A DNA stretch of 64,000 nucleotides from Dastarcus helophoroides (taxonomy: Eukaryota; Arthropoda; Insecta; Coleoptera; Bothrideridae): positions 10,156,442-10,220,441 of the forward strand of contig CM053332.1 in NCBI GenBank assembly GCA_028583605.1, written 5' to 3'. The notes under the pieces were generated by a model. That model searched no databases, had not been told where the DNA came from, and saw only the letters and a program-made list of their open reading frames with translations. Below are positions 12,081 to 38,503 of this stretch, in pieces (the first letter of the stretch is position 1; the number at the start of each line of letters is the position of its first letter). The position numbers and the translations under genes are program-made.

Positions 12081-12084
12081 GTTG

Positions 12085-13438: not shown

Positions 13439-13481
<43 letters not shown>

Positions 13482-14440: not shown

Positions 14441-14569
14441 CGCATAAATAAAACAAAAATAAGACTACTAAGTTTATTTAATTCTTTAATAGCTGTGTTT
14501 GAGTTATTGACATTTTTATTAAATAAATAATTACTTTTAATAATGCAATTCTTTTACTAAATGTGTTTC

Positions 14570-16834
14570 CTATTTTTCGAGATAAAATGGAAATTTTTTA
14601 TTATGGGTATTTTCCAGAACCCAGTCGTCAATTCGTTTAATCATATCGGATGTCATCTCCGTTTGATACTGTTGACATACGCCAGACCGTACAAATCCCT
14701 CTGATGCCTTACCAAAACCAACATTTTTAAGCGAATTTAAAAAGCGTGTTTTATTGACTGCCTCATTAGCCTTCATGTTCTCAAATGACAGGTGTTTTTC
14801 CAGTGTTATTATATTTTCAGTTGTAATGTCAATATTTAAAAACTTAGCACACTTTTTTATCACTTCTCTTAAATTGGTTTTCATCTCTTCGTAGTTAACT
14901 ATAAGTAGGTTAGACTGAGTTCTCAGGTTCCAATAAGAAAAGATATGAGACCAATAAGGCCCACACCAAACTGAAATAAAGGTATTTAATGATACAAATT
15001 TTATAAAACCTAAATTCTTTACTATCTCCTCTAAGGAAAAGGTTTAAGAATTCTTCAAAAGAATCTTCATATCCGAATAAGTTCTTCACAAAATAATAAT
15101 GTGACACTACCACATCCCGTGGATTTCTCATTACATAAATTATCTAAAAGAGTTGGAAAAAATAGAGATTTAATAGAAATTCAGCTTACTTTTGGAGTTC
15201 TCCTGTTGTTTTGAATATCCTCTGGTAAAAGTTGCCAAGGTAAATGAGTCTTAATTACTCGTCTGCCCTTAAGGTTAGCAACAAAATTTACAGAGTTGAC
15301 TACTTCATCTGGCAAATGTTGCAGCCTTGAATCAGAGACAGGAAAATACATTTGCCTTCTGAAAACAAACATATAATTATAAAATAATATTATGCAGACA
15401 ATTTTGGATTTACTGGCACTGGTTACTTAATATGAAACAGACAAAAAAGTTGAAAGTTCTATTAGGTAAAAATGCTGACTAGATATGTAACATTTCCAAT
15501 GAGTAAGAATTCATGCGTTATCATACACATTGAGATCCACCCATAACCGAATTTACGATTTTTCCGAGAAGGGGCAAAAACTTTTGACTAAAAAGAAAGT
15601 TCATTCTCCTCACAACTGCGCCCTAACCATTTGCGAATTTGGCGCTTTCCGATTAACTGGCTTCGCCACATGTCTCTGCTTGTCTTCCCCGGTGGATCCT
15701 TAGCTATATCCACTTTGTTCGGGTATCGAACGCAATGTTTTAGTCATTAAACTAACTCTAAGTTCTTCTGTAATTTCTCGGGTATGTTTGCTTGAATCAC
15801 CTTTGCTTAATGAATCTGTATTATTTGCCATGTTGTTGTTCCTTGTAGCAAAGCTCATATATAATGCAGGAATTATGCCAAATTTGAACTCTGCGATCAT
15901 TTGCTATTTCTTGCTTCAACATATTATGAGTGGCAATATTGGGAGGAGATTTTAGTAGTTTTGCATTTTCCATCCAACTTTAAACTGGTACATAAATAGT
16001 ACATTTTTATAAATTACTTTTTATTCCCTTTCAGTATTCAGAATTGAATTATCATTAGAATGGTCAACAAGTAAATATTGCTCATTTTATTAGAAAAAAT
16101 TATGAACACAATTGGTGGTCTAGTAACAAAGGGCAAAACATTTTTTATATAAAAGTGGACCAGCATTAACTTTCAAATACCAGTTAAAACATAAATACAT
16201 AAATATCTGCATAAGATAGTCAAAAAATATAGGGTGTTCTATTTGAGATAACAAAGTTATCGCTGTTTGAATTAACCAAAATGTTCATACCTGAATCCAA
16301 CGCTCGGTATAATGTTTTTTAACTTATAAAAGGTGTACAAAGTAGCTTCGTATGTGTTCTGCTTAAGTACCAAATATGAAATTAATATTTGGTTTTTGGA
16401 AAAAGATACAAAGACTTTCGTGGGACCTTGCATCTGTCAAATTTTTTATAAAAATCCAATTATCTCAAAACTATAAATTATAAGATCAATGTTTGTTATC
16501 CAAAGTGGCCTTAAAATATTAAATAAAATTTAAAAATGCAAAATATATAGGGTATCTTATTTAAAATAACTAAGTTGGTGTCAACTTCTGGCATAACCCG
16601 AAGCACTAAAACTTTGCGAACATTTTAGTTGTGTTAACCTTTGTCGAATTTGCTAAATTGTTAAATTTTAAAATTTTTTAGGTGAGTACTTTGTCAAAAG
16701 TCGATCGCAGTGGGACATGCTGTATATAGATTCTTACTCCAAAAAGGGACTCCTGATTTCCAAATCTTGCTGACAATTTATGAAATCAAGATTATTAACT
16801 AGCATCCATATCAACTCTTGCATCCACGTAGTGC
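14570..16834 (-). pseudogene. SULT-B: sulfotransferase exons 2-5, no exon 1 (truncated duplicate)
   Basis: Reading the minus strand, exon 2 is 16738-16834, exon 3 15190-15358, exon 4 15023-15143 and exon 5 14570-14970, of 97, 169, 121 and 401 nt, the same lengths as in SULT-C. All splice sites are intact and all four exons are open. Exon 2 gives GTTWMQELIWMLVNN, exon 3 KTHLPWQLLPEDIQ, exon 4 RNPRDVVVSHYYF and exon 5 CGPYWSHIFSYWN to FPFYLEK. No first exon encoding FPRSG is found before the transposon at 17493, because the duplicated block ends inside intron 1. It is either a pseudogene or an alternative 3' cassette spliced to the exon 1 at 47964-48123. A possible AATAAA lies at 14515-14520 (minus). 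Confidence 0.75.
15359..16737. other. SULT-B intron 2
   Basis: It matches 41832-43181 of SULT-C closely. It contains a MITE-like stretch (about 16230-16730) that begins AGGGTGTTCTATTTGAGATA and ends CAGTGGGACATGCTG, roughly inverse ends, present in both copies and so older than the duplication. No gene is seen. Confidence 0.5.
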
Positions 16835-17492
16835 CTGAAATAAAGATATATGCAGTAATGTCATGTGGTGGACACTGGGGTGTTAGAGGAATTAGTTTTG
16901 CAAAATATCTGAAGGTATTTATCGGATTTCTTGCTTATTAAGTATGTCAAATGAGTAGTTACAATGATATGATATGGATACTTATTTTTTTATTTTTAAG
17001 GAATTCACCGGTCAATTAGTTTCTTGTAATTTTTCTTTAAATTTCTGTCAGATTTTACTAACATTGTTAATTGTAAACCTGCAAAATTAAAAGACCAGTG
17101 GTGATGTCAAAGCTGAAATATTCAATGGCAAACTTACGATTTTTAACGTGTAAGGTAAAGGCGAAATATATTTTCAAAGATTTTAATTTATTTCGGCCAA
17201 ACGTTTCCATAAATTTTGATCAAAAAATAGGACGATGTAGGGTGATTTTGCGAATAAAATATTAAAATTTAAGGCTTTTTATTGTACCGTTTTTGCGTAA
17301 TCGTAATTTGAAATTATACATCTCATCGAAATTCGATGCTTTATTTCGCATATTAGAAATAATTGCAATATAGCAGCTCCACCACTCCTTCTAGCTAAAT
17401 GACTTCGGCTAAAGATTTATTGCTGAAATCTGTCGCATAAGCAGTGCAAGCTTGTCGAGTTGGTAAATCGCAAAGCAAAACGGTTTGGAGAT
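16835..17492. other. SULT-B intron 1 remnant and left flank of the foldback element
   Basis: Homology to 43279-43795 runs up to about 17388 and then stops. The next 105 bases up to the element terminus have no match that I can see elsewhere in the window. The short minus frame at 17409-17618 crosses the terminus and is not a gene. Confidence 0.5.
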
Positions 17493-17800
17493 ACCGGTGT
17501 GAAATAAGCAACAAAATTTCCAGCCACAAATTTTAATAGTGCATGTATTCGATAAAGCACTGGTCTGAGGCACTACAGTAAGAATTTGGTTATTAGAGCT
17601 TCGCCAATAATGTGCCATGCAATTATTTCTTTATAAATCCTTTTATTATAGGTAAACAAAGCTAATTGAAACAATAATTCTCCCTTCACCCCATCGATGG
17701 GCGAGCAAAATGGAGCTTCATAATAACGTGTTATAATAACCGTAAAAAAATTGTCACAGAAAAATTTACTATGGAAATCGATTCATTTTTGAATAAGAAC
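17493..17800. repeat. Left terminal repeat of element A
   Basis: The segment matches 25860-26130 directly and 36001-36303 in inverse. It contains CACCCCATCGATGGG, a near-perfect form of the palindrome CCCCATCGATGGGG, followed by a run resembling the array unit (CCGTAAAAAAATTGTCACA). The terminus itself looks like a diverged array unit. Confidence 0.85.
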
Positions 17801-20710
17801 TAAACTGACGCTCAGGCATTTGTCAGACTACCCCGTCGGAGGGGTAGTGGTAAAGGGGTAATGATATATTAAAAGTGTCGTAAAAAAAATTTGTCACAAA
17901 ACTTTTCTTTACAGATCGCTTTATTATTAAAAAAGGACAACACTGGACAGCTCAACATTTGTCAGCCTACCCTCATCGGAGGGGGTGAAAATCCCAATAA
18001 TATATTACAAGAGCTGTGAAAAAAAAATTGTCACAAAATTTTTTCTTTACACATCGTTTTATTATTAAAAAAGAATCAAACTGCCACTCTAACATTTTGC
18101 CAGCCTACCCCGTCGGAGGGGGTGAAAATCCCAATGATATATTACAAGTGTCGTAAAAAAAATTTGTCACAAAAAATTTTCTTTACACATTGTTAAATCA
18201 TTAAAAAAGAATCAAACTGACACTCAACATTTGCAGCCTACCCCGTCGGAGGGGGTGAAAATCCAATGATATATTACAAGTGTCGTAAAAAAAAATTTGT
18301 CACAAAAAATTTTCTCTATACATCGTTTAATTATTAAAAAAGAATCAAACTGACACTCAACATTTTTCAGCCTACCCCGTCGGAGGGGGTGAAAATCCCA
18401 ATGATATATCACAAGTGTCGTAAAAAAAATTTGTCACAAAAAATTTTCTCTATACATCGTTTAATTATTAAAAAAGGATCAAACTGACACTCAACATTTG
18501 CCAGCCTACCCCGTCGGAGGGGGTGAAAATCCCAATGATATATCACAAGTGTCGTAAAAAAAATTTGTCACAAAAAATTTTCTCTATACATCGTTTAATT
18601 ATTAAAAAAGAATCAAACTGACACTCAACATTTGCCAGCCTACCCCGTCGGAGGGGGTGAAAATCCCAATGATATATCACAAGTGTCGTAAAAAAATTTT
18701 TCACAAAAAATTTTCTCTATACATCGTTTAATTATTAAAAAAGAATCAAACTGACACTCAACATATGCCAGCCTACCCCGTCGGAGGGGGTGAAAATCCC
18801 AATGATATATCACAAGTGTCGTAAAAAAAATTTGTCACAAAAAATTTTCTCTATACATCGTTTAATTATTAAAAAAGGAATCAAACTGACACTCAACATT
18901 TGCCAGCCTACCCCGTCGGAGGGGGTGAAAATCCCAATGATATATTCACAAGTGTCGTAAAAAAAAATTTGTCACAAAAAATTTTCTCTATACATCGTTT
19001 AATTATTAAAAAAGAATCAAACTGACACTCAACATTTGCCAGCCTACCCCGTCGGAGGGGGTGAAAATCCCAATGATATATTCACAAGTGTCGTAAAAAA
19101 AATTTGTCACAAAAAATTTTCTCTATACATCGTTTAATTATTAAAAAAGAATCAAACTGACACTCAACATTTGCCAGCCTACCCCGTCGGAGGGGGTGAA
19201 AATCCCAATGATATATCACAAGTGTCGTAAAAAAAATTTGTCACAAAAAATTTTCTCTATACATCGTTTAATTATTAAAAAAGAATCAAACTGACACTCA
19301 ACATTTGCCAGCCTACCCCGTCGGAGGGGGTGAAAATCCCAATGATATATCACAAGTGTCGTAAAAAAAATTTGTCACAAAAAATTTTCTCTATACATCG
19401 TTTAATTATTAAAAAAGAATCAAACTGACACTCAACATTTGCCAGCCTACCCCGTCGGAGGGGGTGAAAATCCCAATGATATATCACAAGTGTCGTAAAA
19501 AAAATTTGTCACAAAAAATTTTCTCTATACATCGTTTAATTATTAAAAAAGAATCAAACTGACACTCAACATTTGCCAGCCTACCCCGTCGGAGGGGGTG
19601 AAAATCCCAATGATATATCACAAGTGTCGTAAAAAAAATTTGTCACAAAAAATTTTCTCTATACATCGTTTAATTATTAAAAAAGAATCAAACTGACACT
19701 CAACATTTGCCAGCCTACCCCGTCGGAGGGGGTGAAAATCCCAATGATATATTACAAGTGTCGTAAAAAAAAATTTGTCACAAAAAATTTTCTCTATACA
19801 TCGTTTAATTATTAAAAAAGAATCAAACTGACACTCAACATTTGCCAGCCTACCCCGTCGGAGGGGGTGAAAAATCCCAATGATATATTCACAAGTGTCG
19901 TAAAAAAAATTTGTCACAAAAAATTTTCTCTATACATCGTTTAATTATTAAAAAAGAATCAAACTGACACTCAACATTTGCCAGCCTACCCCGTCGGAGG
20001 GGGTGAAAATCCCAATGATATATCACAAGTGTCGTAAAAAAAATTTGTCACAAAAAATTTTCTCTATACATCGTTTAATTATTAAAAAAGAATCAAACTG
20101 ACACTCAACATTTGCCAGCCTACCCCGTCGGAGGGGGTGAAAATCCCAATGATATATTCACAAGTGTCGTAAAAAAAATTTGTCACAAAAAAATTTTCTC
20201 TATACATCGTTTAATTATTAAAAAAGAATCAAACTGACACTCAACATTTGCCAGCCTACCCCGTCGGAGGGGGTGAAAATCCCAATGATATATTCACAAG
20301 TGTCGTAAAAAAAATTTGTCACAAAAAATTTTCTCTATACATCGTTTAATTATTAAAAAAGAATCAAACTGACACTCAACATTTGCCAGCCTACCCCGTC
20401 GGAGGGGGTGAAAATCCCAATGATATATCACAAGTGTCGTAAAAAAAATTTGTCACAAAAAATTTTCTCTATACATCGTTTAATTATTAAAAAAGAATCA
20501 AACTGACACTCAACATTTGCCAGCCTACCCCGTCGGAGGGGGTGAAAATCCCAATGATATATCACAAGTGTCGTAAAAAAAATTTGTCACAAAAAATTTT
20601 CTCTATACATCGTTTAATTATTAAAAAAGAATCAAACTGACACTCAACATTTGCCAGCCTACCCCGTCGGAGGGGGTGAACATCCCAATGATATATCACA
20701 AGAGCTGTAA
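17801..20710. repeat. Array 1: 22 copies of a 134-bp unit
   Basis: Successive CCTACCCCGTCGGAGGGGGT cores lie about 134 bp apart from 17827 to 20659. The unit also carries GTCGTAAAAAAAATTTGTCAC and ATCGTTTAATTATTAAAAAA. Most interior copies are almost identical, with the private variants TCTCTATACATCG and GATATATCACAAG, and the outermost three units are the most diverged. The period is not a multiple of 3, so the open frames inside (18224-18412, 19618-19917) are by-products. Confidence 0.97.
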
Positions 20711-20879
20711 AAAAAAATTGTCGTAAAAAACACATTGACACATATAATTTGTGTGCCCTATCCAGCAGGCTAAAATCCCGAAAAGGTATTTCAACAGCTG
20801 TTAAAAATTAGTGATAATATTTTTTCTTCATAAATCAATGTGTTATGTTAAAAAGAGCAAATTGAACTTACATTTGTCA

Positions 20880-21132
20880 GCACTTCGTCGGAGAGGTGAA
20901 ATTTTTGCAAAGGGAGGTATCAGGTCCATAAACTTTGAAATATACCACGCATTCCTTTCCGCACCACCTATGAGGTAGAATGCAAGGCGCGTTTTTTTTT
21001 ACATGGTTTCCCCTTGAGGCCTAATCCATTTTTGATTTTATAACATTTCTTAATTTCTCTATATAAGTCATTACATAGCTCATTATAACTCCTTTGCTGA
21101 ATGAGTGGCATTAATCGTTTGTTTTCAAACAT
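20880..21132 (-). pseudogene. Small Cys-rich downstream ORF of element A, frameshifted
   Basis: It begins MFENKRLMPLIQQRSYNELC and overlaps the end of the large ORF by 22 bases in another frame. At the poly-A run after KPCKK it has nine A where element B has eight, so the frame ends early. The intact form is at 30699-30953. Its function is unknown. Confidence 0.6.
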
Positions 21133-24100
21133 AAATCGCAAATGATATTTGAATTAATAGTTATACATTTTTTGTGGAACTGTCTTAGGCAAATTTTGCA
21201 AACAAATTCGTTTTTAACTTTCTCGTAGCAGACCAAGCAGTAAAATTTGACTGATGCAGACTCTTTAATTATAAGACCTTTTAAATAATTTCTGTATTCC
21301 TTCATATCTTTGGGACTATCTAAAGAACGACCTTTAACTATTTGTTCAGCAAAATATAAAATAAAAGCGCCGCAATGGTAGGGATCTTGTTGTAAGATAT
21401 GTTGCTTATTTTCTAAACTAAGATTATTTGGAAGTATTATGTCAAATTTACTATTGTAGACAAGTAGAAAATTTTGAAATTTGAGCAAATAATTTAGTTT
21501 TATTGTTCTAGAGATTGTGCTTTTTGGATCAATAAAATAGAATTGGGATTTTATGAAATCAATAAATATGAGACACCAGTGATTTCCGTCTACATGAACC
21601 GGAATTAACAGATAATCTCTACAGGAGATGACATTTAAATCGGCAAAGAAACCCTCCTCTATCTGAAGGTTAAAAATCGCAAAAGACTGATCAACAGTAA
21701 AGAATTTAACATTTGTGCAAAACTTTGTAATAACAAAAAGTCCCATATTAATGGCAACATCAGATAGCCAATTGCAGTTCGAAATTGTATCAAAATCTTC
21801 AAAAGAAAACAATTCATATTTGGAAAAATTAAATTTCGCTATCAAATAATTTTTGAAGGTTGGACAACTTTTATAATAATTAGGATTCTTTATCAATCCA
21901 TTCGGCAGTAATGAAACAGAATTAACGAGGGTTGCTGCACCTTTTTCTATTTTGTAAAGTGAGTTAGGCCAAATTCGTTTTTTAATTTTTACTGGATATT
22001 GAGGGTCAACTATTTCGGGTAAGAGGTAGAACATATAAAAATCTCTGAGTTTTGGCAACGCCTTCAACCAAAATGTAGTATTTCTCAAAATTCTTTCTAC
22101 ATGAATATTGCGTTCGGTGTATATTACTAAATCGCACCAGTCACGCCCAGTAATATTAAGAATACCTTGAATTTGATAGTAATAATCATGTGATTGGCGA
22201 AGCTTTCCATCAATACTGTAATATTTTAGTAAGCCTTGTTTTATGGCATCAGCAGGATCGAAATGACGCACTGCATAAGGGCACTTAACCTCAACTACAC
22301 CACTATCACTAACAAATCCATCAGGAGAACATGCCAAAAATGGAAATTCAGAAGATATAATTAAACCACATTTAGAGACTATTTCTGTCGGATATTTTGC
22401 GCTGTATGCCTTTAGCGCATTTTCTTCATTTTTCTTTCCATGCATTGTTGCCACTGAATAAAACTCTAAAGTATGCAATAAAACGTTAACTTTATTACTC
22501 AACGAGCTTTCATTTCTACTTTTACAGATCTTGCCAAAGTTTGAAGAAGTAAGTCTCTTTCTTCGTTCAATTTTCCACAATTTTGAGTCATTTTGCGCAA
22601 TTGTTTCCCTATTCAATTGTACTCTTTCTTCATCTTCTAACACCAACTCTTTTATAAAGTCATCACATTTGTTTTGTAAATCAAAACCGCTAAGAGGCAT
22701 ATTTACATGTTTTTCTGTTACTGCACTGTCATGTTTTTTTTTTGTTAATAAAGGCATTTTAGTTATTTCTTTAAGGTGTGCTGTGTCAAAATTAGTTACT
22801 GATTGAATAGATTTTTTTTTCCAAGTTTCTTGACTTACTAAAATGTCAATTTGAGAAAGGCAGTCGATGCCAATTTCTAAATTCTTTGCGCTTTTTACCC
22901 GAGCACAACGATATTTTGGTACCTTAAATTCTTCCTCTTTATAAATCGATAATACTCGTTTCCTAATTTCTCTGATGACTCTACTGATTTTCTGATTTTC
23001 TAATTTACCTTGAATCAAGTTCTTTACAACGGAAAACCAGTTTTCCACAGGCGCATTGCTTAACCTGTTTTCATCTGACGCCAATAATATACCGCTCCAT
23101 AAGGGCAAATATGGAATATATTTTTTAAGAATGATTTGCAAAACTAATGGATTGTAAAAACAGTTTAAATGCTCAGAATTAATATCTATTTCATTAGCAA
23201 CAGTATTATCAAAAATAACTTTAAATTTTTTGAAAAATGGGCTATTCAAATATATGGCTTCAGTATTTTCTGAAATATTGTTACTTTCGTTATAATCGTA
23301 AGGCGTTTCCAAAAGATCCATAGATCCTTTATCAATACACAACCGAATTAAATTTGATTTTGCTTCATTCACTTGTATGCTGACAAATTTGGAAGTTAAC
23401 AAAATTGTCATATATTGGAACCAGAGGCATATATCTTGAAAATATTTTATATTAAATGAGGCAGCTAAACATTCTTTAAAAAAGGTTTGTGCTTCTTTAT
23501 TATTGACAGTTTTTTTTATATCATTTGCTATTATTTTAAAAAAATGTGAGCAACATATATGTACGGAGACGATTTTTTTCAAGGATGCAGTATTTTGATT
23601 CTGAATAACATCATATGTTAAATTTAAGTAAGAAATTATATCCATTGAATTAAAAAAGATCAATATAGCGTTGATTATGGCAAAACTAAAATCACAAACT
23701 ACTTTTTGGAATATTGGCCACTTTTTAGTTTCTTCCAAAACGTATGACTTAAAAGCACCTAACCACATCCCGATTGAAATAGTATCATGTTTACAGCTTA
23801 TCAGTTCAAATACGGGACATACACGTTTATTATTGCTTGTTACTATAACTGCAGCATAATAAAATACCCTTTTTTGGCATAAATATTTTGGTTTCCGAAC
23901 TAAAGATCCAGTAGCATCTATGTGAACAGTTAGCCCCTTTTCTGCCTCAGATAAAATTAAATTTAGTTGTTCTCTACTAAAAATACATACATTCAAAGGT
24001 TGTGCCACTACTTTAACATACTGAAAATTGTTTCTTTGCATCAGTACCAAATCTATTAGGTCATCAGGATGGCGATCGTTAATTGCTAGTCGTTCTGACT

Positions 24101-24563
24101 TAATTTTACGAAATACTTGATCTGATTTAATGCCCTGTAGATTTCCAACTTTCAAGAGTGTTCTGTTTGCTTTTAAAACGCTTTCTTCGCGCAATTTAGA
24201 TGGTTTGATATATTTAATATCTTTTCGATATAATTTTCGAGCATCTCCATTCAAATATCTGGTTAATTTATCAACGTGATTGTAGTTAAGTGATGAACTG
24301 TATACTGTTACCTTATGAAGGACATTTGAATATATATCGCAAATTGTAAGGACAAACTTTTTACAGTTATGGGCGCAGTATGCATATATCTTTCCGAAAG
24401 CTTTCTTTTTTGATATGTAAGTTCTTTTAAAATTAAAAATACATATATTATTAACTCCTTTCAATTTTTCAGAAAAAACATAGTTCCAGCGACCAGTAAC
24501 AAATTTCTCTCCGTCGAATATATCAAGTAAATTCAGTATGTGAAAGAAAAAACGACCCCTCAT
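21111..24563 (-). CDS. Element A large protein: DDE-like transposase + YqaJ nuclease + Ulp1-like protease + PHD finger
   Basis: An uninterrupted 1150-aa ORF. Residues about 200-520 look like a DDE transposase of Mutator/KDZ style: D216 in HIDATG, D291 in VVCDFSFAI, a C/H cluster at 335-340 and E507 in NAPVENWF. Residues about 660-800 match the YqaJ/lambda-exonuclease fold: SSNFG, E713/E714, D748 in SPDGF, E758-x-K760 in VVEVKCPY and Q797/Q799. Residues about 955-1075 match C48/Ulp1-type cysteine proteases: H995-W996, D1012, Q1058/Q1059 and C1064 in DPYHCG. Residues 1109-1145 form a C4HC3 PHD-type finger (C1109, C1112, C1122, C1125, H1130, C1133, C1142, C1145). All key residues are present, so it may be active. 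The real N-terminus probably lies in the overlapping upstream ORF. Domain calls are by eye; the transposase superfamily is the least certain. Confidence 0.85.
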   Translation of the reverse strand: MRGRFFFHILNLLDIFDGEKFVTGRWNYVFSEKLKGVNNICIFNFKRTYISKKKAFGKIYAYCAHNCKKFVLTICDIYSNVLHKVTVYSSSLNYNHVDKLTRYLNGDARKLYRKDIKYIKPSKLREESVLKANRTLLKVGNLQGIKSDQVFRKIKSERLAINDRHPDDLIDLVLMQRNNFQYVKVVAQPLNVCIFSREQLNLILSEAEKGLTVHIDATGSLVRKPKYLCQKRVFYYAAVIVTSNNKRVCPVFELISCKHDTISIGMWLGAFKSYVLEETKKWPIFQKVVCDFSFAIINAILIFFNSMDIISYLNLTYDVIQNQNTASLKKIVSVHICCSHFFKIIANDIKKTVNNKEAQTFFKECLAASFNIKYFQDICLWFQYMTILLTSKFVSIQVNEAKSNLIRLCIDKGSMDLLETPYDYNESNNISENTEAIYLNSPFFKKFKVIFDNTVANEIDINSEHLNCFYNPLVLQIILKKYIPYLPLWSGILLASDENRLSNAPVENWFSVVKNLIQGKLENQKISRVIREIRKRVLSIYKEEEFKVPKYRCARVKSAKNLEIGIDCLSQIDILVSQETWKKKSIQSVTNFDTAHLKEITKMPLLTKKKHDSAVTEKHVNMPLSGFDLQNKCDDFIKELVLEDEERVQLNRETIAQNDSKLWKIERRKRLTSSNFGKICKSRNESSLSNKVNVLLHTLEFYSVATMHGKKNEENALKAYSAKYPTEIVSKCGLIISSEFPFLACSPDGFVSDSGVVEVKCPYAVRHFDPADAIKQGLLKYYSIDGKLRQSHDYYYQIQGILNITGRDWCDLVIYTERNIHVERILRNTTFWLKALPKLRDFYMFYLLPEIVDPQYPVKIKKRIWPNSLYKIEKGAATLVNSVSLLPNGLIKNPNYYKSCPTFKNYLIAKFNFSKYELFSFEDFDTISNCNWLSDVAINMGLFVITKFCTNVKFFTVDQSFAIFNLQIEEGFFADLNVISCRDYLLIPVHVDGNHWCLIFIDFIKSQFYFIDPKSTISRTIKLNYLLKFQNFLLVYNSKFDIILPNNLSLENKQHILQQDPYHCGAFILYFAEQIVKGRSLDSPKDMKEYRNYLKGLIIKESASVKFYCLVCYEKVKNEFVCKICLRQFHKKCITINSNIICDLCLKTND

Positions 24564-25233
24564 AATGACTGCACTCTTTATACTTTGGCCGAATCCAGTC
24601 CTTAGATTTCATATTTTTGGCGTTTAATGGAATGATGTTTTTTGTAATGACATTTAAGTTATATAGGTCGATAATAGTCTGTGGAATGTCTTCTTGTTCA
24701 GTGGAGACTTCTTTGGTGCTTACGTTCCAACTATGTTCACTAAATGATACTGATTCTTCCGAATTATCCTTACTATAATTCTCCACCTTCTTGCATTCAT
24801 TAAATTGGTTTACATTAATGGAATGCAAATTAATTTTAGAATTTGAAAAATATTTACGTAATTCTTTGAAAGCCTCTTTACTTAATTGTAGTTCTTTTGG
24901 TAGAAGGTAATTAGATATAACTTTAATTTTTGCCTGCTGTACGTTGTTTGACGAAAAATTTACCATATTATTTTCATCATTGCTAAATTTCTCAGATTTA
25001 ATCATGCCCAAATCAACTTGTATCGTATCTTTCATTCGTTCAATACATTTCTTAATCTTATATCTGTTGCTAAATGAATTTTTCATTTTCAATTTTATGC
25101 ATATGTTTGATAACAAAGAGTTTTCTAATCTCGGTGATATTTTGATAGCGTCAGGAATATTCTCAACAAATTTTAACAATTTTGTTATGTCTATCGTGGA
25201 TTTTTTACCCCTGATGTTACGATTATTTGCCAT
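24523..25233 (-). CDS. Element A upstream ORF, 236 aa, probable N-terminal part of the large protein
   Basis: It starts MANNRNIRGKKSTIDITKLL at 25233 and ends 41 bases inside the large ORF. It is rich in Lys, Asn and Ser, and I recognise no domain. Near its end it reads DWIRPKYKECSHYEGS, after which the large ORF continues in the +1 frame with GRFFFHILNLL. This looks like one protein split by a 1-nt frame change, or by a small intron or recoding site. A separate regulatory protein is the alternative. Confidence 0.6.
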   Translation of the reverse strand: MANNRNIRGKKSTIDITKLLKFVENIPDAIKISPRLENSLLSNICIKLKMKNSFSNRYKIKKCIERMKDTIQVDLGMIKSEKFSNDENNMVNFSSNNVQQAKIKVISNYLLPKELQLSKEAFKELRKYFSNSKINLHSINVNQFNECKKVENYSKDNSEESVSFSEHSWNVSTKEVSTEQEDIPQTIIDLYNLNVITKNIIPLNAKNMKSKDWIRPKYKECSHYEGSFFLSHTEFT

Positions 25234-25859
25234 TTACCAGTTTATTAATATAAGTTCTATTTGAAAATTGGGGTGAAAAATGAAATATGATTAATTGTTC
25301 TTAACCTTCAGTTAAATGCTTGCGATTAACTTAAAACAATTATTTGTCACAAGCAAAATAGATACCAGTTTTAAGTAATGTCCAAAATAGATCAGCAGGA
25401 AAAGCTTTCCAAATGTTTAAATCCAAAACGAGAACTTACCTCGCAAACGTAATTAATATGTAAAAAAATCACTATTTTACACAAAAATAGAACACAGTTC
25501 AACGGTTTAGTATAAACACGTTTATAATACTAAACTAAGAGTTGGTGGAAATTGAGATGAAAGCTTTAATAAGATTCGAGTTTGCTGATCACACAATTCT
25601 CACCAAAATTGTTTTGTCTGCACCACCAGAAACCACGTTACGATGTTTATGTTTGAAATAACGGTTCCTAGGCTTTCGGAAATAATGCAAGGCTACTGAT
25701 TTTAGCTACTTATACTTCGGGAAATGATATAGAAGTCTGTTGTATGTTTATATAAGATTTTGCACCAAATACAGAAACGACATCTCTACGAAAAATGAAA
25801 CCGGCGAAATCAGCAAGGCAAAACTCTCTGGTTTAACTCCCGTATCAATAAAAATGTTA
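25234..25859. other. Upstream region of the element A gene
   Basis: No ORF and no 134-bp units are present. It should hold the promoter of the minus-strand gene, but no clear core promoter motif is seen. Element B starts directly after it. Confidence 0.4.
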
Positions 25860-26130
25860 ACCGGTGTGAAATGAGCAACAAAATTTCCAGCAACAAATTT
25901 TAATAGTGCATGTACTCGATAAAGCACTGGTCTGAGGCATACAGTAAGAATTTGGTTATTAGAGCTTCGCCAATAATGTGCCAGGCAATTATTTCTTTAC
26001 AAATCCTTTTATTATGTTAAACAAAGCTAATTGACACAATAATTCTCCCTTCACCCCATCGATGGGGGAGTAAAATGGGCTTCGTAATAACGTGTTATAA
26101 TAACCGTAAAAAAATTTCTCACAAAAAATT
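25860..26130. repeat. Left terminal repeat of element B
   Basis: It matches 17493-17800 and the inverse of 36001-36303, including CACCCCATCGATGGGGGAG near 26054 and ATAACGTGTTATAATAACCG. Confidence 0.85.
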
Positions 26131-29100
26131 TTCTCTACACATCGTTTAATTATTAAAAAAGAATCAAACTAACACTCAACATTTGTCAGCCTACCCCGTC
26201 GGAGGGGGTGAAAATCCCAATGATATATTACAAGTGTCGTAAAAAAAATTTGTCACAAAAAATTTTCTTCACACATCGTTTAATTATTAAAAAAGAATCA
26301 AACTGACACTCAACATTTGCCAGCCTACCCCGTCGGAGGGGGTGAAAATCCCAATGATATATTACAAGTGTCGTAAAAAAAATTTGTCACAAAAAATTTT
26401 CTCTACACATCGTTTAATTATTAAAAAAGAATCAAACTGACACTCAACATTTGCCAGCCTACCCCGTCGGAGGGGGTGAAAATCCCAATGATATATTACA
26501 AGTGTCGTAAAAAAAATTTGTCACAAAAAATTTTCTCTACACATCGTTTAATTATTAAAAAAGAATCAAACTGACACTCAACATTTGCAGCCTACCCCGT
26601 CGGAGGGGGTGAAAATCCCAATGATATATTACAAGTGTCGTAAAAAAAATTTGTCACAAAAAATTTTCTCTACACATCGTTTAATTATTAAAAAAGAATC
26701 AAACTGACACTCAACATTTGCCAGCCTACCCCGTCGGAGGGGGTGAAAATCCCAATGATATATTACAAGTGTCGTAAAAAAAATTTGTCACAAAAAATTT
26801 TCTCTACACATCGTTTAATTATTAAAAAAGAATCAAACTGACACTCAACATTTGCCAGCCTACCCCGTCGGAGGGGGTGAAAATCCCAATGATATATTAC
26901 AAGTGTCGTAAAAAAAATTTGTCACAAAAAATTTTCTCTACACATCGTTTAATTATTAAAAAAGAATCAAACTGACACTCAACATTTGCCAGCCTACCCC
27001 GTCGGAGGGGGTGAAAATCCCAATGATATATTACAAGTGTCGTAAAAAAAATTTGTCACAAAAAATTTTCTCTACACATCGTTTAATTATTAAAAAAGAA
27101 TCAAACTGACACTCAACATTTGCCAGCCTACCCCGTCGGAGGGGGTGAAAATCCCAATGATATATTACAAGTGTCGTAAAAAAAATTTGTCACAAAAAAT
27201 TTTCTCTTACACATCGTTTAATTATTAAAAAAGAATCAAACTGACACTCAACATTTGCCAGCCTACCCCGTCGGAGGGGGTGAAAATCCCAATGATATAT
27301 TACAAGTGTCGTAAAAAAAATTTGTCACAAAAAATTTTCTCTATACATCGTTTAATTATTAAAAAAGAATCAAACTGACACTCAACATTTGCCAGCCTAC
27401 CCCGTCGGAGGGGGTGAAAATCCCAATGATATATTACAAGTGTCGTAAAAAAAATTTGTCACAAAAAATTTTCTCTACTACATCGTTTAATTATTAAAAA
27501 AGAATCAAACTGACACTCAACATTTGCCAGCCTACCCCGTCGGAGGGGGTGAAAATCCCAATGATATATTACAAGTGTCGTAAAAAAAATTTGTCACAAA
27601 AAATTTTCTCTACTACATCGTTTAATTATTAAAAAAGAATCAAACTGACACTCAACATTTGCCAGCCTACCCCGTCGGAGGGGGTGAAAATCCCAATGAT
27701 ATATTACAAGTGTCGTAAAAAAAATTTGTCACAAAAAATTTTCTGTACACATCGTTTAATTATTAAAAAAGAATCAAACTGACACTCAACATTTGCCAGC
27801 CTACCCCGTCGGAGGGGGTGAAAATCCCAATGATATATTACAAGTGTCGTAAAAAAAATTTGTCACAAAAAATTTTCTCTACACATCGTTTAATTATTAA
27901 AAAAGAATCAAACTGACACTCAACATTTGCCAGCCTACCCCGTCGGAGGGGGTGAAAATCCCAATGATATATTACAAGTGTCGTAAAAAAAATTTGTCAC
28001 AAAAAATTTTCTGTACACATCGTTTAATTATTAAAAAAGAATCAAACTGACACTCAACATTTGCCAGCCTACCCCGTCGGAGGGGGTGAAAATCCCAATG
28101 ATATATTACAAGTGTCGTAAAAAAAATTTGTCACAAAAAATTTTCTCTACACATCGTTTAATTATTAAAAAAGAATCAAACTGACACTCAACATTTGCCA
28201 GCCTACCCCGTCGGAGGGGGTGAAAATCCCAATGATATATTACAAGTGTCGTAAAAAAAATTTGTCACAAAAAATTTTCTCTATACATCGTTTAATTATT
28301 AAAAAAGAATCAAACTGACACTCAACATTTGCCAGCCTACCCCGTCGGAGGGGGTGAAAATCCCAATGATATATTACAAGTGTCGTAAAAAAAATTTGTC
28401 ACAAAAAATTTTCTCTATACATCGTTTAATTATTAAAAAAGAATCAAACTGACACTCAACATTTGCCAGCCTACCCCGTCGGAGGGGGTGAAAATCCCAA
28501 TGATATATTACAAGTGTCGTAAAAAAAATTTGTCACAAAAAATTTTCTCTATACATCGTTTAATTATTAAAAAAGAATCAAACTGACACTCAACATTTGC
28601 CAGCCTACCCCGTCGGAGGGGGTGAAAATCCCAATGATATATTACAAGTGTCGTAAAAAAAATTTGTCACAAAAAATTTTCTGTACACATCGTTTAATTA
28701 TTAAAAAAGAATCAAACTGACACTCAACATTTGCCAGCCTACCCCGTCGGAGGGGGTGAAAATCCCAATGATATATTACAAGTGTCGTAAAAAAAATTTG
28801 TCACAAAAAATTTTCTCTACACATCGTTTAATTATTAAAAAAGAATCAAACTGACACTCAACATTTGCCAGCCTACCCCGTCGGAGGGGGTGAAAATCCC
28901 AATGATATATTACAAGTGTCGTAAAAAAAATTTGTCACAAAAAATTTTCTCTATACATCGTTTAATTATTAAAAAAGAATCAAACTGACACTCAACATTT
29001 GCCAGCCTACCCCGTCGGAGGGGGTGAAAATCCCAATGATATATTACAAGTGTCGTAAAAAAAATTTGTCACAAAAAATTTTCTCTACACATCGTTTAAT

Positions 29101-30525
29101 TATTAAAAAAGAATCAAACTGACACTCAACATTTGCCAGCCTACCCCGTCGGAGGGGGTGAAAATCCCAATGATATATTACAAGTGTCGTAAAAAAAATT
29201 TGTCACAAAAAATTTTCTCTATCACATCGTTTAATTATTAAAAAAGAATCAAACTGACACTCAACATTTGCCAGCCTACCCCGTCGGAGGGGGTGAAAAT
29301 CCCAATGATATATTACAAGTGTCGTAAAAAAAATTTGTCACAAAAAATTTTCTCTACACATCGTTTAATTATTAAAAAAGAATCAAACTGACACTCAACA
29401 TTTGCCAGCCTACCCCGTCGGAGGGGGTGAAAATCCCAATGATATATTACAAGTGTCGTAAAAAAAATTTGTCACAAAAAATTTTCTCTACACATCGTTT
29501 AATTATTAAAAAAGAATCAAACTGACACTCAACATTTGCCAGCCTACCCCGTCGGAGGGGGTGAAAATCCCAATGATATATTACAAGTGTCGTAAAAAAA
29601 ATTTGTCACAAAAAATTTTCTCTACACATCGTTTAATTATTAAAAAAGAATCAAACTGACACTCAACATTTGCCAGCCTACCCCGTCGGAGGGGGTGAAA
29701 ATCCCAATGATATATTACAAGTGTCGTAAAAAAAATTTGTCACAAAAAATTTTCTCTACACATCGTTTAATTATTAAAAAAGAATCAAACTGACACTCAA
29801 CATTTGCCAGCCTACCCCGTCGGAGGGGGTGAAAATCCCAATGATATATTACAAGTGTCGTAAAAAAAATTTGTCACAAAAAATTTTCTCTACACATCGT
29901 TTAATTATTAAAAAAGAATCAAACTGACACTCAACATTTGCCAGCCTACCCCGTCGGAGGGGGTGAAAATCCCAATGATATATTACAAGTGTCGTAAAAA
30001 AAATTTGTCACAAAAAATTTTCTCTACACATCGTTTAATTATTAAAAAAGAATCAAACTGACACTCAACATTTGCCAGCCTACCCCGTCGGAGGGGGTGA
30101 AAATCCCAATGATATATTACAAGTGTCGTAAAAAAAATTTGTCACAAAAAATTTTCTCTACACATCGTTTAATTATTAAAAAAGAATCAAACTGACACTC
30201 AACATTTGCCAGCCTACCCCGTCGGAGGGGATGAAAATCCCAATGATATATTACAAGTGTCGTAAAAAAAATTTGTCACAAAAAATTTTCTTTACACATC
30301 GTTTAATTATTAAAAAAGAATCAAACTGACACTCAACATTTGTCCAGCCTACCCCGTCGGAGGGGGTGAAAAACCCAATGATATATTACAAGTGTCGTAA
30401 AAAAAATTTGTCACAAAAAATTTTCTCTACACATCGTTTAATTATTAAAAAAGAATCAAACTGACACTCAACATTTGCCAGCCTACCCCGTCGGAGGGGT
30501 GAAAATTCCAATAATATATTACAAG
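26131..30525. repeat. Array 2: 33 copies of the 134-bp unit
   Basis: Cores spaced at 134 bp run from 26190 to 30483, in the same orientation as array 1. The copies are strikingly uniform, with TCTCTACACATCG and ATATATTACAAG as the dominant variants, shared with array 3 but not array 1. Occasional 1-bp changes (CTCTACTACATCG, CTGTACACATCG) recur in neighbouring units, as expected from unit duplication. Confidence 0.97.
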
Positions 30526-30698
30526 AGCTGTAAAAAAAATTGTCATAAAAAACACATTAGCACATATAATTTGTGTGCCCTATCCAGCAGGCTAAAATCC
30601 CGAAAAGGTATTTCAACAGCTGTTAAAAATTAGTGATAACATTTTTTCTTCATAAATCAATGTGTTATGGTAAAAAGAACAATTTGAACTTACATTTG

Positions 30699-30953
30699 TC
30701 AGCACTTCGTCGGAGAGGTGAAATTTTTGCAAAGGGAGGTATCAGGTCCATAAACTTTGAAATATACCACGCATTCCTTTCCGCACCACCTATGAAGTAG
30801 AATGCAAGGTGCGTTTTTTTTACATGGTTTCCCTTTGAGGCCTATTCCATTTTTGATTTTATAACATTTCTTGATTTCTCTATATAAGTCATTACATAGC
30901 TCATTATAACTCCTTTGGTGAATGAGTGGCATTAATCGTTTGTTTTCAAACAT
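30699..30953 (-). CDS. Small Cys-rich ORF of element B
   Basis: An 84-aa frame starting MFENKRLMPLIHQ and ending CKNFTSPTKC, with Cys spread through CYKIKNG, PCKKNAPC and WCGKEC. It overlaps the former end of the large ORF and runs into a sequence resembling the array core (CTTCGTCGGAGAGG). It may be a small zinc-binding accessory protein or the last exon of the large gene; no known domain is recognised. It is intact here and frameshifted in element A. Confidence 0.5.
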   Translation of the reverse strand: MFENKRLMPLIHQRSYNELCNDLYREIKKCYKIKNGIGLKGKPCKKNAPCILLHRWCGKECVVYFKVYGPDTSLCKNFTSPTKC

Positions 30954-30959
30954 AAATCG

Positions 30960-32197
30960 CAAATGATATTTAAATTAATAGTTATACATTTTTTGTGGAA
31001 CTGTCTTAGGCAAATTTTGCAAACAAATTCGTTTTTAACTTTCTCATAGCAGACCAAGCAGTAAAATTAGACTGATGCAGACTCTTTAATTATAAGACGT
31101 TTTAAATAATTTCTGTATTCCTTCATATCTTTGGGACTATCTAAAGAACGACCTTTAACTATTTGTTCAGCAAAATATAAAATAAAAGCGCCGCAATGGT
31201 AGGGATCTTGTTGTAAGATATGTTGCTTATTTTCTAAACTAAGATTATTTGGAAGTATTGTGTCAAATTTATTATTGTAGACAAGTAGAAAATTTTGAAA
31301 TTTGAGCAAATAATTTAGTTCTATTGTTCTAGAGATTGTGCTTTTTGGATCAATAAAATAGAATTGGGATTTTATGAAATCAATAAATATGAGACACCAG
31401 TGATTTCCGTCTACATGAACCGGAATTAACAGATAATCTCTACAGGAGATGACATTTAAATCGGCAAAGAAACCTTCCTCTATCTGAAGGTTAAAAATCG
31501 CAAAAGACTGATCAACAGTAAAGAATTTAACATTTGTGCATCTTCTAATACCAACTCTCTTATAAAGTCATCACATTTGTTTTGTAAATCAAAACCGCTA
31601 AGAGGCATATTTACATGTTTTTCTGTTACTGCAGTGTCATGTTTTTTTTGTTAATAAAGGCATTTTAGTTATCTCTTTAAGGTGTGCTGTGTCAAAATTA
31701 GTTACTGATTGAATAGATTTTTTTTTCCAAGTTTCTTGACTTACTAAAATGTCAGTTTGAGAAAGGCAGTCGATGCCAATTTCTAAATTCTTTGCGCTTT
31801 TTACCCGAGCACAACGATATTTAGGTACCTTAAATTCTTCCTTTTTATAAATCGATAATGCTTGTTTCATAATTTCTCTGATGACTACTGATTTTCTGAT
31901 TTTCTAATTTACCTTGAATCAAGTTCTTTACAACGGAAAACCAGTTTTCCACAGGCGCATTACTTAATCTGTTTTCAACTGACGCCAATAATACACCGCT
32001 CCATAAGGGCAAATATGGAATATATTTTTTAAGAATGATTTGAAAAAATAATGCATTGTAAAAACAGTTTAAATGCTCAGAATTAATATCTATTTCATTA
32101 GCAGCAGTATTTTCAAAAATATTTTTAAATTTTTTGAAAAATGGGCTATTCAAATATATAGCTTCAGTATTTTCTGAAATATTGTTACTTTCGTTAC
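30960..32197 (-). pseudogene. Element B copy of the large gene, internally deleted
   Basis: The segment is nearly identical to parts of 21111-23300. The C-terminal protease piece is kept at 31067-31520. It then jumps near 31540 from the position equivalent to about 21718 to about 22633, removing most of the nuclease part. The transposase C-terminal part, including NAPVENWF, is kept at 31637-32153 but frameshifted near 31885. Everything upstream of the point equivalent to about 23297 is replaced by array 3. The ORF that would encode the first two catalytic Asp residues is gone, so no working transposase can be made. Confidence 0.9.
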
Positions 32198-35100
32198 AAA
32201 AATTTTTTTTTTACAAATGTTGACAAATGTTGAGTGTCAGTATGATTCCTTTTTAATAATTAAACGATGTGCAAAGAAAATTTTTTGTGACAAATCTTTT
32301 TTAACGACACTTGTAATATATCATTGGGATTTTCACCCCCTTCGACGGGGTAGGCTGGAAAATATTAAGTGTCAGTTTGATTCTTTTTTAATAATTAAAC
32401 GATGTGTAGAGAAAATTTTTTGTGACAAATTTTTTTTACGACACTTGTAATATATCATTGGGATTTTCACCCCCTCCGACGGGGTAGGCTGAAAAATGTT
32501 GAGTGTCAGTTTGATTCTTTTTTAATAATTAAACGATGTGTAGAGAAAATTTTTTGTGACAAATTTTTTTTACGACACTTGTAATATATCATTGGGATTT
32601 TCACCCCCTCCGACGGGGTAGGCTGAAAAATGTTGAGTGTCAGTTTGATTCTTTTTTAATAATTAAACGATGTGTAGAGAAAATTTTTTGTGACAATTTT
32701 TTTTTACGGCACTTGTAATATATCATTGGGATTTTCACCCCCTCCGACGGGGTAGGCTGAAAAATGTTGAGTGTCAGTTTGATTCTTTTTTAATAATTAA
32801 ACGATGTGTAGAGAAAATTTTTTGTGACAAATTTTTTTTACGACACTTGTAATATATCATTGGGATTTTCACCCCCTCCGACGGGGTAGGCTGGCAAATG
32901 TTGAGTGTCAGTTTGATTCTTTTTTAATAATTAAACGATGTGTAGAGAAAATTTTTTGTGACAAATTTTTTTTACGACACTTGTAATATATCATTGGGAT
33001 TTTCACCCCCTCCGACGGGGTAGGCTGGCAAATGTTGAGTGTCAGTTTGATTCTTTTTTAATAATTAAACGATGTGTAGAGAAAATTTTTTGTGACAAAT
33101 TTTTTTTACGACACTTGTAATATATCATTGGGATTTTCACCCCCTCCGACGGGGTAGGCTGGCAAATGTTGAGTGTCAGTTTGATTCTTTTTTAATAATT
33201 AAACGATGTGTAGAGAAAATTTTTTGTGACAAATTTTTTTTACGACACTTGTAATATATCATTGGGATTTTCACCCCCTCCGACGGGGTAGGCTGGCAAA
33301 TGTTGAGTGTCAGTTTGATTCTTTTTTAATAATTAAACGATGTGTAGAGAAAATTTTTTGTGACAAATTTTTTTTACGACACTTGTAATATATCATTGGG
33401 ATTTTCACCCCCTCCGACGGGGTAGGCTGACAAATGTTGGGTGTCAGTTTAATTCTTTTTTAATAATAAAACGATGTGTACAGAAAATTTTTTGGGACAA
33501 ATTTTTTTTTACGACACTTGTAATATATCATTGGGATTTTCACCCCCTCCGACGGGGTAGGCTGACAAATGTTGAGTGTCAGTTTGATTCTTTTTTAATA
33601 ATTAAGCGACGTGTAAAGAAAATTTTTAGTGACAAAATTTTTTTACGACACTTGTAATATATCATTGGGATTTTCACCCCCACCGACGGGGTAGACTGGC
33701 AAATGTTGAGTGTCAGTTTGATTCTTTTTTAATAATAAGACGATGTGTAGAGAAAATTTTTTGTGACAAATTTTTTTTACGACACTTGTAATATATCATT
33801 GGGATTTTCACCCCCCTCCGACGGGGTAGGCTGGAAAATGTTGAGTGTCAGTTTGATTCTTTTTTAATAATTAAACGATGTGTAGAGAAAATTTTTTGTG
33901 ACAAATTTTTTTTACGACACTTGTAATATATCATTGGGTTTTTCACCCCCTCCGACGGGGTAGGCTGAAAATGTTGAGTGTCAGTTTGATTCTTTTTTAA
34001 TAATTAAACGATGTGTAGAGAAAATTTTTTGTGACAAATTTTTTTTACGACACTTGTAATATATCATCGGGATTTTCAACCCCTCCGACGGGGTAGGCTG
34101 AAAATGTTGAGTGTCAGTTTGATTCTTTTTTAATAATTAAACGATGTGTAAAGAAAATTTTTTGTGACAAATTTTTTTTACGACACTTGTAATATATCAT
34201 TGGGATTTTCACCCCCTCCGACGGGGTAGGCTGACAAATGTTGAGTGTCAGTTTGATTCTTTTTTAATAATTAAACGATGTGTAGAGAAAATTTTTTGTG
34301 ACAAATTTTTTTTACGACACTTGTAATATATCATTGGGATTTTTCACCCCCTCCGACGGGGTAGGCTGAAAATGTTGAGTGTAGTTTGATTCTTTTTTAA
34401 TAATTAAACGATGTGTAGAGAAAATTTTTTGTGACAAATTTTTTTTACGACACTTGTAATATATCATTGGGATTTTCACCCCCTCCGACGGGGTAGGCTG
34501 GAAAATGTTAAGTGTCAGTTTGATTCTTTTTTAATAATTAAACGATGTGTAGAGAAAATTTTTCGTGACAAATTCTTTTTGCGACACTTGTAATATATCA
34601 TTGGGATTTTCACCCCCTTCCGACGGGGTAGGCTGGAAAATAGTTGAGTGTCAGTTTGATTCTTTTTTAATAATTAAACGATGTGTAGAGAAAATTTTTT
34701 GTGACAAATTTTTTTTACGACACTTGTAATATATCATTGGGATTTTCACCCCCTCCGACGGGGTAGGCTGAAAATGTTGAGTGTCAGTTTGATTCTTTTT
34801 TAATAATTAAACGATGTGTAAAGAAAATTTTTTGTGACAAATTTTTTTTACGACACTTGTAATATATCATTGGGATTTTTCACCCCCTCCGACGGGGTAG
34901 GCTGAAAATGTTGAGTGTTCAGTTTGATTCTTTTTTAATAATTAAACGATGTGTAGAGAAAATTTTTTGTGACAAATTTTTTTTACGACACTTGTAATAT
35001 ATCATTGGGATTTTCACCCCCTCCGACGGGGTAGGCTGGCAAATGTTGAGTGTCAGTTTGATTCTTTTTTAATAATTAAACGATGTGTAAAGAAAATTTT

Positions 35101-36000
35101 TTGTGACAAATTTTTTTTTACGACACTTGTAATATATCATTGGGATTTTCACCCCCTTCCGACGGGGTAGGCTGAAAATGTTGAGTGTCAGTTTGATTCT
35201 TTTTTAATAATTAAACGATGTGTAGAGAAAATTTTTTGTGACAAATTTTTTTTACGACACTTGTAATATATCATTGGGATTTTCACCCCCTCCGACGGGG
35301 TAGGCTGAAAATGTTGAAGTGTCAGTTTAATTCTTTTTTAATAATTAAACGATGTGTAAAGAAAATTTTTTGTGACAAATTTTTTTTACGACACTTGTAA
35401 TATATCATTGGGAATTTCACCCCCTTCGACGGGGTAGGCTGAAAAATGTTGAGTGTCAGTTTGATTCTTTTTTAGTAATTAAACGATGTGTAGAGAAAAT
35501 TTTTTGTGACAAATTTTTTTTACGACACTTGTAATATATCATTGGGATTTTCACCCCCTCCGACGGGGTAGGCTGAAAAATGTTAAGTGTCAGTTTGATT
35601 TTTTTTTAATAATAAAACGATGTGTAGAGAAAATTTTTTGTGACAAATTTTTTTTACGACACTTGTAATATATCATTGGGATTTTCACCCCCTCCGACGG
35701 GGTAGGCTGGAAAATATTAAGTGTCAGTTTGTTTCTTTTTTAATAATTAAACGATGTGTAGAGAAAATTTTTTGTGACAAATTTTTTTTACGACACTTGT
35801 AATATATCATTGGGATTTTCACCCCCTCCGACGGGGTAGGCTGACAAATGTTGAGTGTCAGTTTGGTTCTTTTTTAATAATAAAAGATGTGTAAAGAAAA
35901 AATTTTGTGACAATTTTTTTTCACAGCTCTTGTAATATATTATTGGGATTTTCACCCCCTCCGATGGGGTAGGCTGACAAATGCTGAGTGCCAGTTTAGT
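32198..36000. repeat. Array 3: 28 inverted copies of the 134-bp unit
   Basis: The inverse core CCCCCTCCGACGGGGTAGGC recurs every 134 bp from 32347 to 35967. Units near the outer end and around 33430-33720 are the most diverged (1-bp indels, TAATAATAAAACG), while the inner ones match array 2. The open frame at 32217-32450 is a by-product of the repeat. Confidence 0.97.
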
Positions 36001-36303
36001 TCTTATTCAAAAATGAATCGATTTCCATAGTAAATTTTTTGTGACAAATTTTTTTACGGTTATTATAACACGTTATTACGAAGCCCATTTTGCTCCCCCA
36101 TCGATGGGGTGAAGGGAGAATTATTGTGTCAATTAGCTTTGTTTACTATAATAAAAGGATTTATAAAGAAATAATTGCATGGCACATTAGTGGCGAAGCT
36201 CTAATAACCAAATTCTTACTGTATGCCTCAGACCAGTGCTTTATCGAATACATGCACTATTAAAATTTGTGGCTGGAAATTTTGTTGCTTATTTCACACC
36301 GGT
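36001..36303. repeat. Right terminal inverted repeat of element B
   Basis: This is the inverse of 17493-17800 and 25860-26130. It includes the perfect palindrome CCCCATCGATGGGG near 36095 and ends ATTTCACACCGGT. Confidence 0.9.
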
Positions 36304-36540
36304 CTGGATCGACCGTTAAAGTTGCTAGTCCCCCTAATCCCTACCATTGTCAAAAAATATATATGTTTTATTGCTCCTTGCGCGGTTGAGGGGGTTATTC
36401 AAAAGCTCAAACTCGGAGGTCCAATTCGTTGTTTGAAAATTAGAGTGGGGGAATATCCGCGCAACTTTAATGATCGTATCCTGATAACTTTAACAAGCCT
36501 GCAACTTTAACGGATGCAACTTTAGAAAAGGTCGACTGTA
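36304..36540. mobile_element. Pogo-type MITE copy 1, 5' end cut by element B
   Basis: It matches the intact copy at 36584-36808 from ATCGACCGTTAAAGTTG to the end GGTCGACTG, followed by TA. Its own left end is missing where element B ends, and that left end is not found at 17493 or 25860. Confidence 0.75.
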
Positions 36541-37250: not shown

Positions 37251-37311
37251 AAATTGACACAAAAATTAATAATAAAATATATCAATCACGAAGATGCCCT
37301 AATTTAAGTTT

Positions 37312-38453: not shown

Positions 38454-38454
38454 G

Positions 38455-38502
<48 letters not shown>
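38454..38502. repeat. (TA)n microsatellite in the right RTE copy
   Basis: About 24 TA units, grown from a short GGGTATATATATTG seed still seen at 13645-13660 in the left copy. Confidence 0.9.

Positions 38503-38503
<1 letters not shown>

Follow-up and report, generated by a model that had tools for sequence, protein, structure and literature searches.

What kind of gene joins a transposase-like region to a nuclease, a protease, and a finger motif in one open reading frame (ORF)? The question is raised by a 1150-amino acid frame in a 64,000-nucleotide stretch of the Dastarcus helophoroides genome (the window; GCA_028583605.1, contig CM053332.1, positions 10,156,442 to 10,220,441). A sequence-only reading had described it as an uninterrupted frame with four modules that formed one transposon protein and a candidate new transposon lineage. 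We consider it somewhat probable that the frame covers the bulk of the gene for the transposase in a Rehavkus-like, MULE-related transposon with inverted tandem-repeat arms, and that its DDE, YqaJ, Ulp1-like, and C4HC3 modules cooperate in transposition. The frame is indeed open on the minus strand, and the plus strand across 21111-24563 is riddled with stops. The order from the N terminus is the region holding D216, D291, and E507, then YqaJ, Peptidase_C48, and the C4HC3 finger. The coding features are as follows.

21111..24563, minus strand: 1150-amino acid frame with the predicted transposase, YqaJ, C48/Ulp1, and C4HC3 finger modules
24523..25233, minus strand: N-terminal part of the same coding sequence, 236 amino acids, continuous with the rest in an intact 1373-amino acid copy
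22926..24017, minus strand: predicted RNase-H-fold DDE transposase core, about residues 183-546 (D216, D291, E507)
21993..22637, minus strand: YqaJ/lambda-exonuclease-like domain, residues 643-857 (D748, E758, K760)
21255..21917, minus strand: C48/Ulp1-like protease domain, about residues 883-1103 (H995, D1012, Q1058, C1064)
21129..21239, minus strand: C-terminal C4HC3 (PHD-like) finger, residues 1109-1145, from the sequence pattern and a weak profile match

The four modules do share one chain, but the frame is not the complete protein. The N terminus lies in the adjoining ORF 24523-25233, which a one-base frameshift has put out of frame with the rest. This ORF matches the N-terminal part of homologue P0003, and one P0003 frame spans both ORFs. 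A copy on contig C4 of the same genome has one open frame of 1373 amino acids that runs through all domains; the other listed ORF of at least 100 amino acids in that copy (106 amino acids) overlaps this frame on the other strand. The window and C4 coding sequences differ by the one-base frameshift and at 21 of 1372 compared codons (11 synonymous, 10 nonsynonymous). The nonsynonymous rate (dN) is 0.0033 and the synonymous rate (dS) is 0.0137, and their ratio, which rests on few changes, points to selection on the protein. Given the single frameshift and the few codon differences, the window holds a young copy with a frameshift, and the gene survives intact elsewhere. The window copy is probably inactive, and an intact copy is present in the same genome.

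The transposase core was examined by alignment and structure prediction. A single-sequence search gave four homologues, and a profile built from these four plus the window sequence returned 29, adding 26 to the set (n = 30). D216 and D291 are kept in all 31 aligned rows (window plus 30 homologues), and E507 is kept in 27, the other four being gapped at that position. The predicted model has an RNase-H fold with the D, D, and E in place. Its top structural match is ISCth4, which we take to be an IS256-family, MULE-like enzyme, so the structural match on which the proposed RNase-H-fold transposase was staked was found. A Pfam scan of the 1150-amino acid frame gave no integrase family at E ≤ 1 and no transposase family, MULE included, at the same threshold, the latter negative being limited by the HMMER filters. 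KDZ/Zisupton, named in the sequence-only reading, is absent from the 50 structural matches listed for the core; this excludes nothing, and no direct comparison was made. The DDE assignment is thus a prediction from fold and alignment.

Pfam recognizes both of the additional enzyme modules above its curated cut-offs, YqaJ at residues 663-807 (E = 7.6e-16) and Peptidase_C48 at residues 978-1101 (E = 7.1e-11). Sequence searches of the PDB gave LHK alkaline exonuclease as the best match for the nuclease part (E = 1.2e-08) and SENP1 for the protease part (E = 1.2e-07). D748 is kept in seven of the eight YqaJ rows, and E758 and K760 are kept in all eight. A profile match, a predicted fold, and the D...E-x-K site are all present for a YqaJ-type nuclease. 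The protease part is covered by 16 rows (window plus 15 of the 30 homologues); H995, Q1058, and C1064 are kept in every one, and position 1012 is D in 13 and N in three. The C48/Ulp1 module likewise has the profile match, the predicted fold, and the H-D-Q-C residues, and the structural matches of its model include SUMO, NEDD8, and ubiquitin proteases. The catalytic residues that the sequence-only reading had assigned to the three enzyme modules are thus in place. The claimed C4HC3 finger stands as a spacing in the sequence, C-x2-C...C-x2-C...H-x2-C...C-x2-C, but its best profile, C1_2, is weak and under the cut-off (E = 0.023). PHD is above the cut-off in some homologues, and P0030 has a PHD near its C terminus.

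As had been proposed, the gene belongs to an element rather than being an ordinary host gene, to judge by exact 9-bp target duplications. The intact C4 copy (C4:36903496-36916015, 12,520 bp) is flanked on both sides by GCGTAATTG. Its plan is a tip, an array (21 unit matches), about 356 bp, the gene, an inverted array (28 matches), and a tip. The copy at C8:26036134-26043763 (7630 bp) is flanked by GAAATCGAG and has, within a few bases, the internal deletion of window element 2 (listed below). Of the nine copies for which both ends were obtained, five carry exact 9-bp duplications (C4, C8 at 26.0 Mb, L044, L045, and L046); neither L047 nor L048 has an exact one, and C2 and the window pair have none. 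The five short tip pairs that were fetched comprise three with exact 9-bp duplications, one with 6 of 9 matching, and one with an eroded left tip. Four of the five exactly duplicated copies are internally deleted, and therefore derivatives have moved. A tip search of the genome gave at least 43 matches, and array lengths outside the window range from 3 to 28 unit matches per copy. The same tips bound four short non-autonomous derivatives, L044, L045, L046, and L048 (0.5-1.4 kb), three of which have the exact duplication. The right end of the C4 copy has two tandem tips about 316 bp apart (C4:36915452-36916015), and the 9-bp duplication abuts the outer one.

The satellite-like arms noted beside the frame proved to be 134-bp tandem arrays, which together with the tips and bodies delimit two elements in the window.

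17493..17743, plus strand: outer tip of element 1, starting ACCGGTGTGAAATAAGC
17744..20730, plus strand: 134-bp tandem array 1, arm of element 1; 22.2 copies by Tandem Repeats Finder, 21 anchored units
20731..25859, minus strand: body of element 1; 99.4% identity over 5129 bp to the intact C4 copy
25860..36303: element 2, a deletion derivative that starts at the truncated end of the body of element 1
26108..30552, plus strand: 134-bp tandem array 2, left arm of element 2; 33 anchored units
30553..32196, minus strand: shrunken body of element 2; equivalents of 20731-21719 and 22625-23292
32225..36055, minus strand: 134-bp tandem array 3, inverted right arm of element 2; 28 anchored units
36056..36303, minus strand: right tip of element 2, ending CACACCGGT

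Element 1 (17493-25859) is cut short at the start of element 2, and the approximately 356 bp and arm that follow this point in the C4 copy were not found at the junction. Tips beginning ACCGGTGTG lie at 17493, at 25860, and, inverted, ending at 36303. Tip and 134-bp unit align with a local score of 42, and the best of 200 shuffles scored 29. A target duplication flanking the window pair was looked for and none was found. Scans of the window for tRNA and Rfam families gave no matches. A diverged Rehavkus-like copy lies at L031:4454-6280 on the minus strand (contig C12, 29.60 Mb), with YqaJ (9e-16), C48 (2.2e-06), and a finger-like end, and it adjoins its own 148-bp tandem array of 15.9 units. 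Because GGGGTGAAA is common to the 148-bp and 134-bp units and GGGGTGAA recurs in the element tip, GGGGTGAA may be a candidate protein-binding part.

The traits of the element are those of a published group. Rehavkus, a Repbase group that is a sister or outgroup of MULEs, has a 9-bp duplication, a PHD finger, a minisatellite, and a single ORF; its hosts are arthropods and annelids, and in 2019 it was said to be described in Repbase only (PMC6446971). Rehavkus-1_TC has 164-bp units in its inverted termini (PMC10218199). The present element is similar in its 9-bp duplication (exact in the five of nine copies), its minisatellite termini with 134-bp arrays in both arms, and its single ORF, here 1373 amino acids in the C4 copy. 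The Rehavkus PHD finger is represented by the C4HC3 pattern, but no finger profile is above the cut-off in the frame. The words Ulp1, protease, and YqaJ are absent from the main text of PMC6446971, and the likeness lies in the described traits. The proposal of a new lineage seems not to hold, given that minisatellite arms, the 9-bp duplication, the single ORF, and the PHD finger are Rehavkus traits and that Ulp1/PHD on transposases (PMC2836005) and YqaJ in ISL2EU (PMC4482050) were already published.

Other transposons share single modules. DDE transposases with a C-terminal Ulp1, sometimes a PHD, or an OTU instead were published in 2010 for Ginger1 and Mutator (PMC2836005), and Ulp1 occurs on the plant MULEs Kaonashi and Vandal (PMC13317346). 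The present protein resembles the Ginger1 and Mutator transposases in combining a DDE core with a C-terminal Ulp1 and a PHD-like finger. Unlike it, Ginger1 has a core of the Gypsy-integrase type (YPYY, H2C2, GPY/F), and the excerpted texts on these transposases mention no YqaJ (PMC2836005, PMC13317346). In ISL2EU, a PHIS/Harbinger-like group, a YqaJ exonuclease accompanied the DDE transposase as a second ORF by 2015 (PMC4482050, PMC9179366), and the authors call its role unknown (PMC4482050). YqaJ thus travels with a DDE transposase in both, but ISL2EU has the separate ORF, an AT dinucleotide duplication, and a THAP/HTH transposase, whereas the present element has YqaJ in cis and a 9-bp duplication. 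A parallel in domain fusion is PF20700, 'Mutator-like transposase', which is joined to YqaJ in proteins of Ceutorhynchus assimilis and Melanaphis sacchari (precomputed Pfam domains) and also in this genome. The scanned PF20700-YqaJ copy has no reported Ulp1 or finger, and its repeats have short inverted ends and terminate in TTAA. These repeats form a family of about 7 kb (L032, L034, L035, L036, and L041-L043, on contigs C3, C10, C12, and C7) in which a PF20700 end is fused to YqaJ; L032 matches PF20700 at 2.2e-17 and YqaJ at 1.9e-21. In all three copies examined (C3, C10, and C7), TTAA flanks the inverted ends (TTAAGGCGGSGGTCTGGTA) on either side. These ends recall TTAA-duplicating groups such as Kolobok rather than Mutator. 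FB/NOF are foldback elements. The foldback element Tetris also has long inverted arms of tandem repeats, with 8-10 bp duplications, and its authors assign it to Mutator; unlike the present element, the copies they found had no conserved ORF (PMC4079207). A YqaJ domain joined in cis to a Rehavkus-like transposase is new as far as the open-licence PubMed Central literature searched shows. The available text of these papers contained neither YqaJ fused to a MULE- or Rehavkus-type transposase nor all four modules in one protein.

Lambda exonuclease resects 5' ends in phage recombination. The donor break left by a cut-and-paste transposon is normally repaired by the host. If the four modules cooperate, the DDE core would bind the repeated arm motif, cut at the ACCGGT ends, and join the target with a 9-bp stagger, a step proposed because of the fold and the 9-bp duplications. 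The tethered YqaJ would resect the 5' ends of the donor break and steer repair to sister-chromatid copying or to annealing between repeats, and the donor would be restored or shortened. The Ulp1 domain would take SUMO or a related modifier off local repair or chromatin proteins, and the C4HC3 finger would serve as a chromatin anchor. From the domain content we infer that the protein may exert end resection and SUMO or chromatin control. Bao and colleagues had already proposed a repair-related action for Ulp1 and OTU domains carried by transposases (PMC2836005). A more specific and tentative proposal is a single chain that would cut, resect, and remove SUMO, the fused nuclease resecting the donor so that repair recopies the element and cut-and-paste gives a net gain of copies. 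Several DDE groups would then have recruited YqaJ for this purpose, ISL2EU in trans and the PF20700 and Rehavkus-like proteins in cis.

The distribution of YqaJ bears on whether it has a function in the element. The domain is present in 7 of the 30 homologues, including one from the weevil Ceutorhynchus assimilis with 33% identity across 99% of the query; it and Prorops nasuta, both insects, are the only organisms named in the set. An extra PHD match lies directly before YqaJ in P0007, P0011 (below the cut-off), P0013, P0015, and P0018 but not in P0008, a count of five of seven carriers that leaves out P0017, which was not scanned. The 23 homologues without YqaJ include some with C48, some that are truncated, and some with other or possible other proteases; absence of YqaJ from truncated rows carries no meaning. 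Two distant transposases of the family have no reported C48 but carry an OTU (P0029, N-terminal, E = 8.4e-08) or possibly a UCH (P0006, weak, E = 0.043, below the cut-off), so one type of ubiquitin/SUMO protease may be exchangeable for another.

Phylogenetic trees were used to trace the nuclease. The DDE tree of 20 rows, from which 11 of the 31 were dropped as truncated or as distant without a recognized C48, places the window nearest to P0003 (98/96), which has no YqaJ. Four changes of the YqaJ label are required on this tree, and well-supported branches force at least three. On the DDE data a single clade of carriers is rejected, at p = 1.9e-48 for 31 rows and p = 3.3e-11 for 20. The YqaJ tree was built from 50 domains hand-picked from 106 matching sequences. 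It groups the nine Rehavkus-like domains (window, seven carriers, and L031) with one long-branched PF20700 row (99/97), one clade of Rehavkus-like domains is not rejected (p = 0.238), and the organism-named rows in that half of the tree are all insects. Because of this grouping, a single old capture followed by losses is the preferred, though uncertain, history. Two or more independent captures inside Rehavkus are disfavored by the same grouping, despite the rejection of a carrier clade on the DDE tree. Swapping of YqaJ between Rehavkus elements, considered from the differing trees, was also set aside: tested on the YqaJ domain by itself, the DDE grouping is not rejected (p = 0.283), and the YqaJ, DDE, and C48 trees of the eight carriers show no significant conflict in it.

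These trees lend something to the doubtful view that YqaJ is a captured passenger, carried and lost without effect on an element that moves by its DDE, Ulp1, and finger modules: the nearest homologue does without it, and the label changes repeatedly. Its retained catalytic residues (E and K in every YqaJ row, D in all but one), the 30-37% identity of the C-terminal halves of these rows to that of the window, the intact frame through all domains, and the YqaJ nucleases kept in other transposon groups argue against it. It is unlikely that the extra domains serve mainly against silencing, with Ulp1 and the finger acting on chromatin and YqaJ binding arm-repeat DNA rather than cutting it. An Ulp1 and chromatin role has been proposed for plant Vandal/KIU proteins, and Ulp1-carrying plant MULE proteins direct the loss of silencing marks on related copies (PMC13317346); the ISL2EU authors call their YqaJ protein DNA-binding with an exonuclease domain (PMC4482050). 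The nuclease residues are conserved, however, and DNA binding alone does not need them. Less plausible still is a nuclease that remodels the element, altering the arms by resection and single-strand annealing between 134-bp units and producing internally deleted copies. Arm lengths do vary (21, 33, and 28 units in the window, 3 to 28 elsewhere) and short derivatives exist, but tandem arrays can vary by host recombination alone, and the published Rehavkus and Tetris have arrays with no mention of YqaJ in the excerpted texts (PMC10218199, PMC4079207). A host gene, or an assembly artefact fusing unrelated genes, had nothing in its favor and is scarcely credible beside a near-identical intact copy on another large contig, seven homologues with YqaJ, and terminal repeats with target duplications.

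The transposons lie between two tandem duplicates, window 9115-17359 and 36539-43790, which match piecewise with 92.7% identity over 3.1 kb, and the elements may have taken part in this duplication. The duplicates hold sulfotransferase exons at 14570-14884 and 41043-41357, and further such exons lie at 10274-10675 and 55549-55947. Reverse-transcriptase fragments are found at 2967-3386 (RVT_1, 8.6e-12) and 38501-38920 (2.3e-04, below the cut-off).

If the proposed cooperation is true, a transposase with a recombination-type exonuclease and a SUMO-protease-like domain in its own chain would let the element influence which repair pathway is used. The fusion makes it testable why YqaJ nucleases recur beside animal transposases. 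For the Rehavkus group, the element is a candidate relative that is available intact, has defined ends and target duplications, and has given rise to short derivatives that moved.

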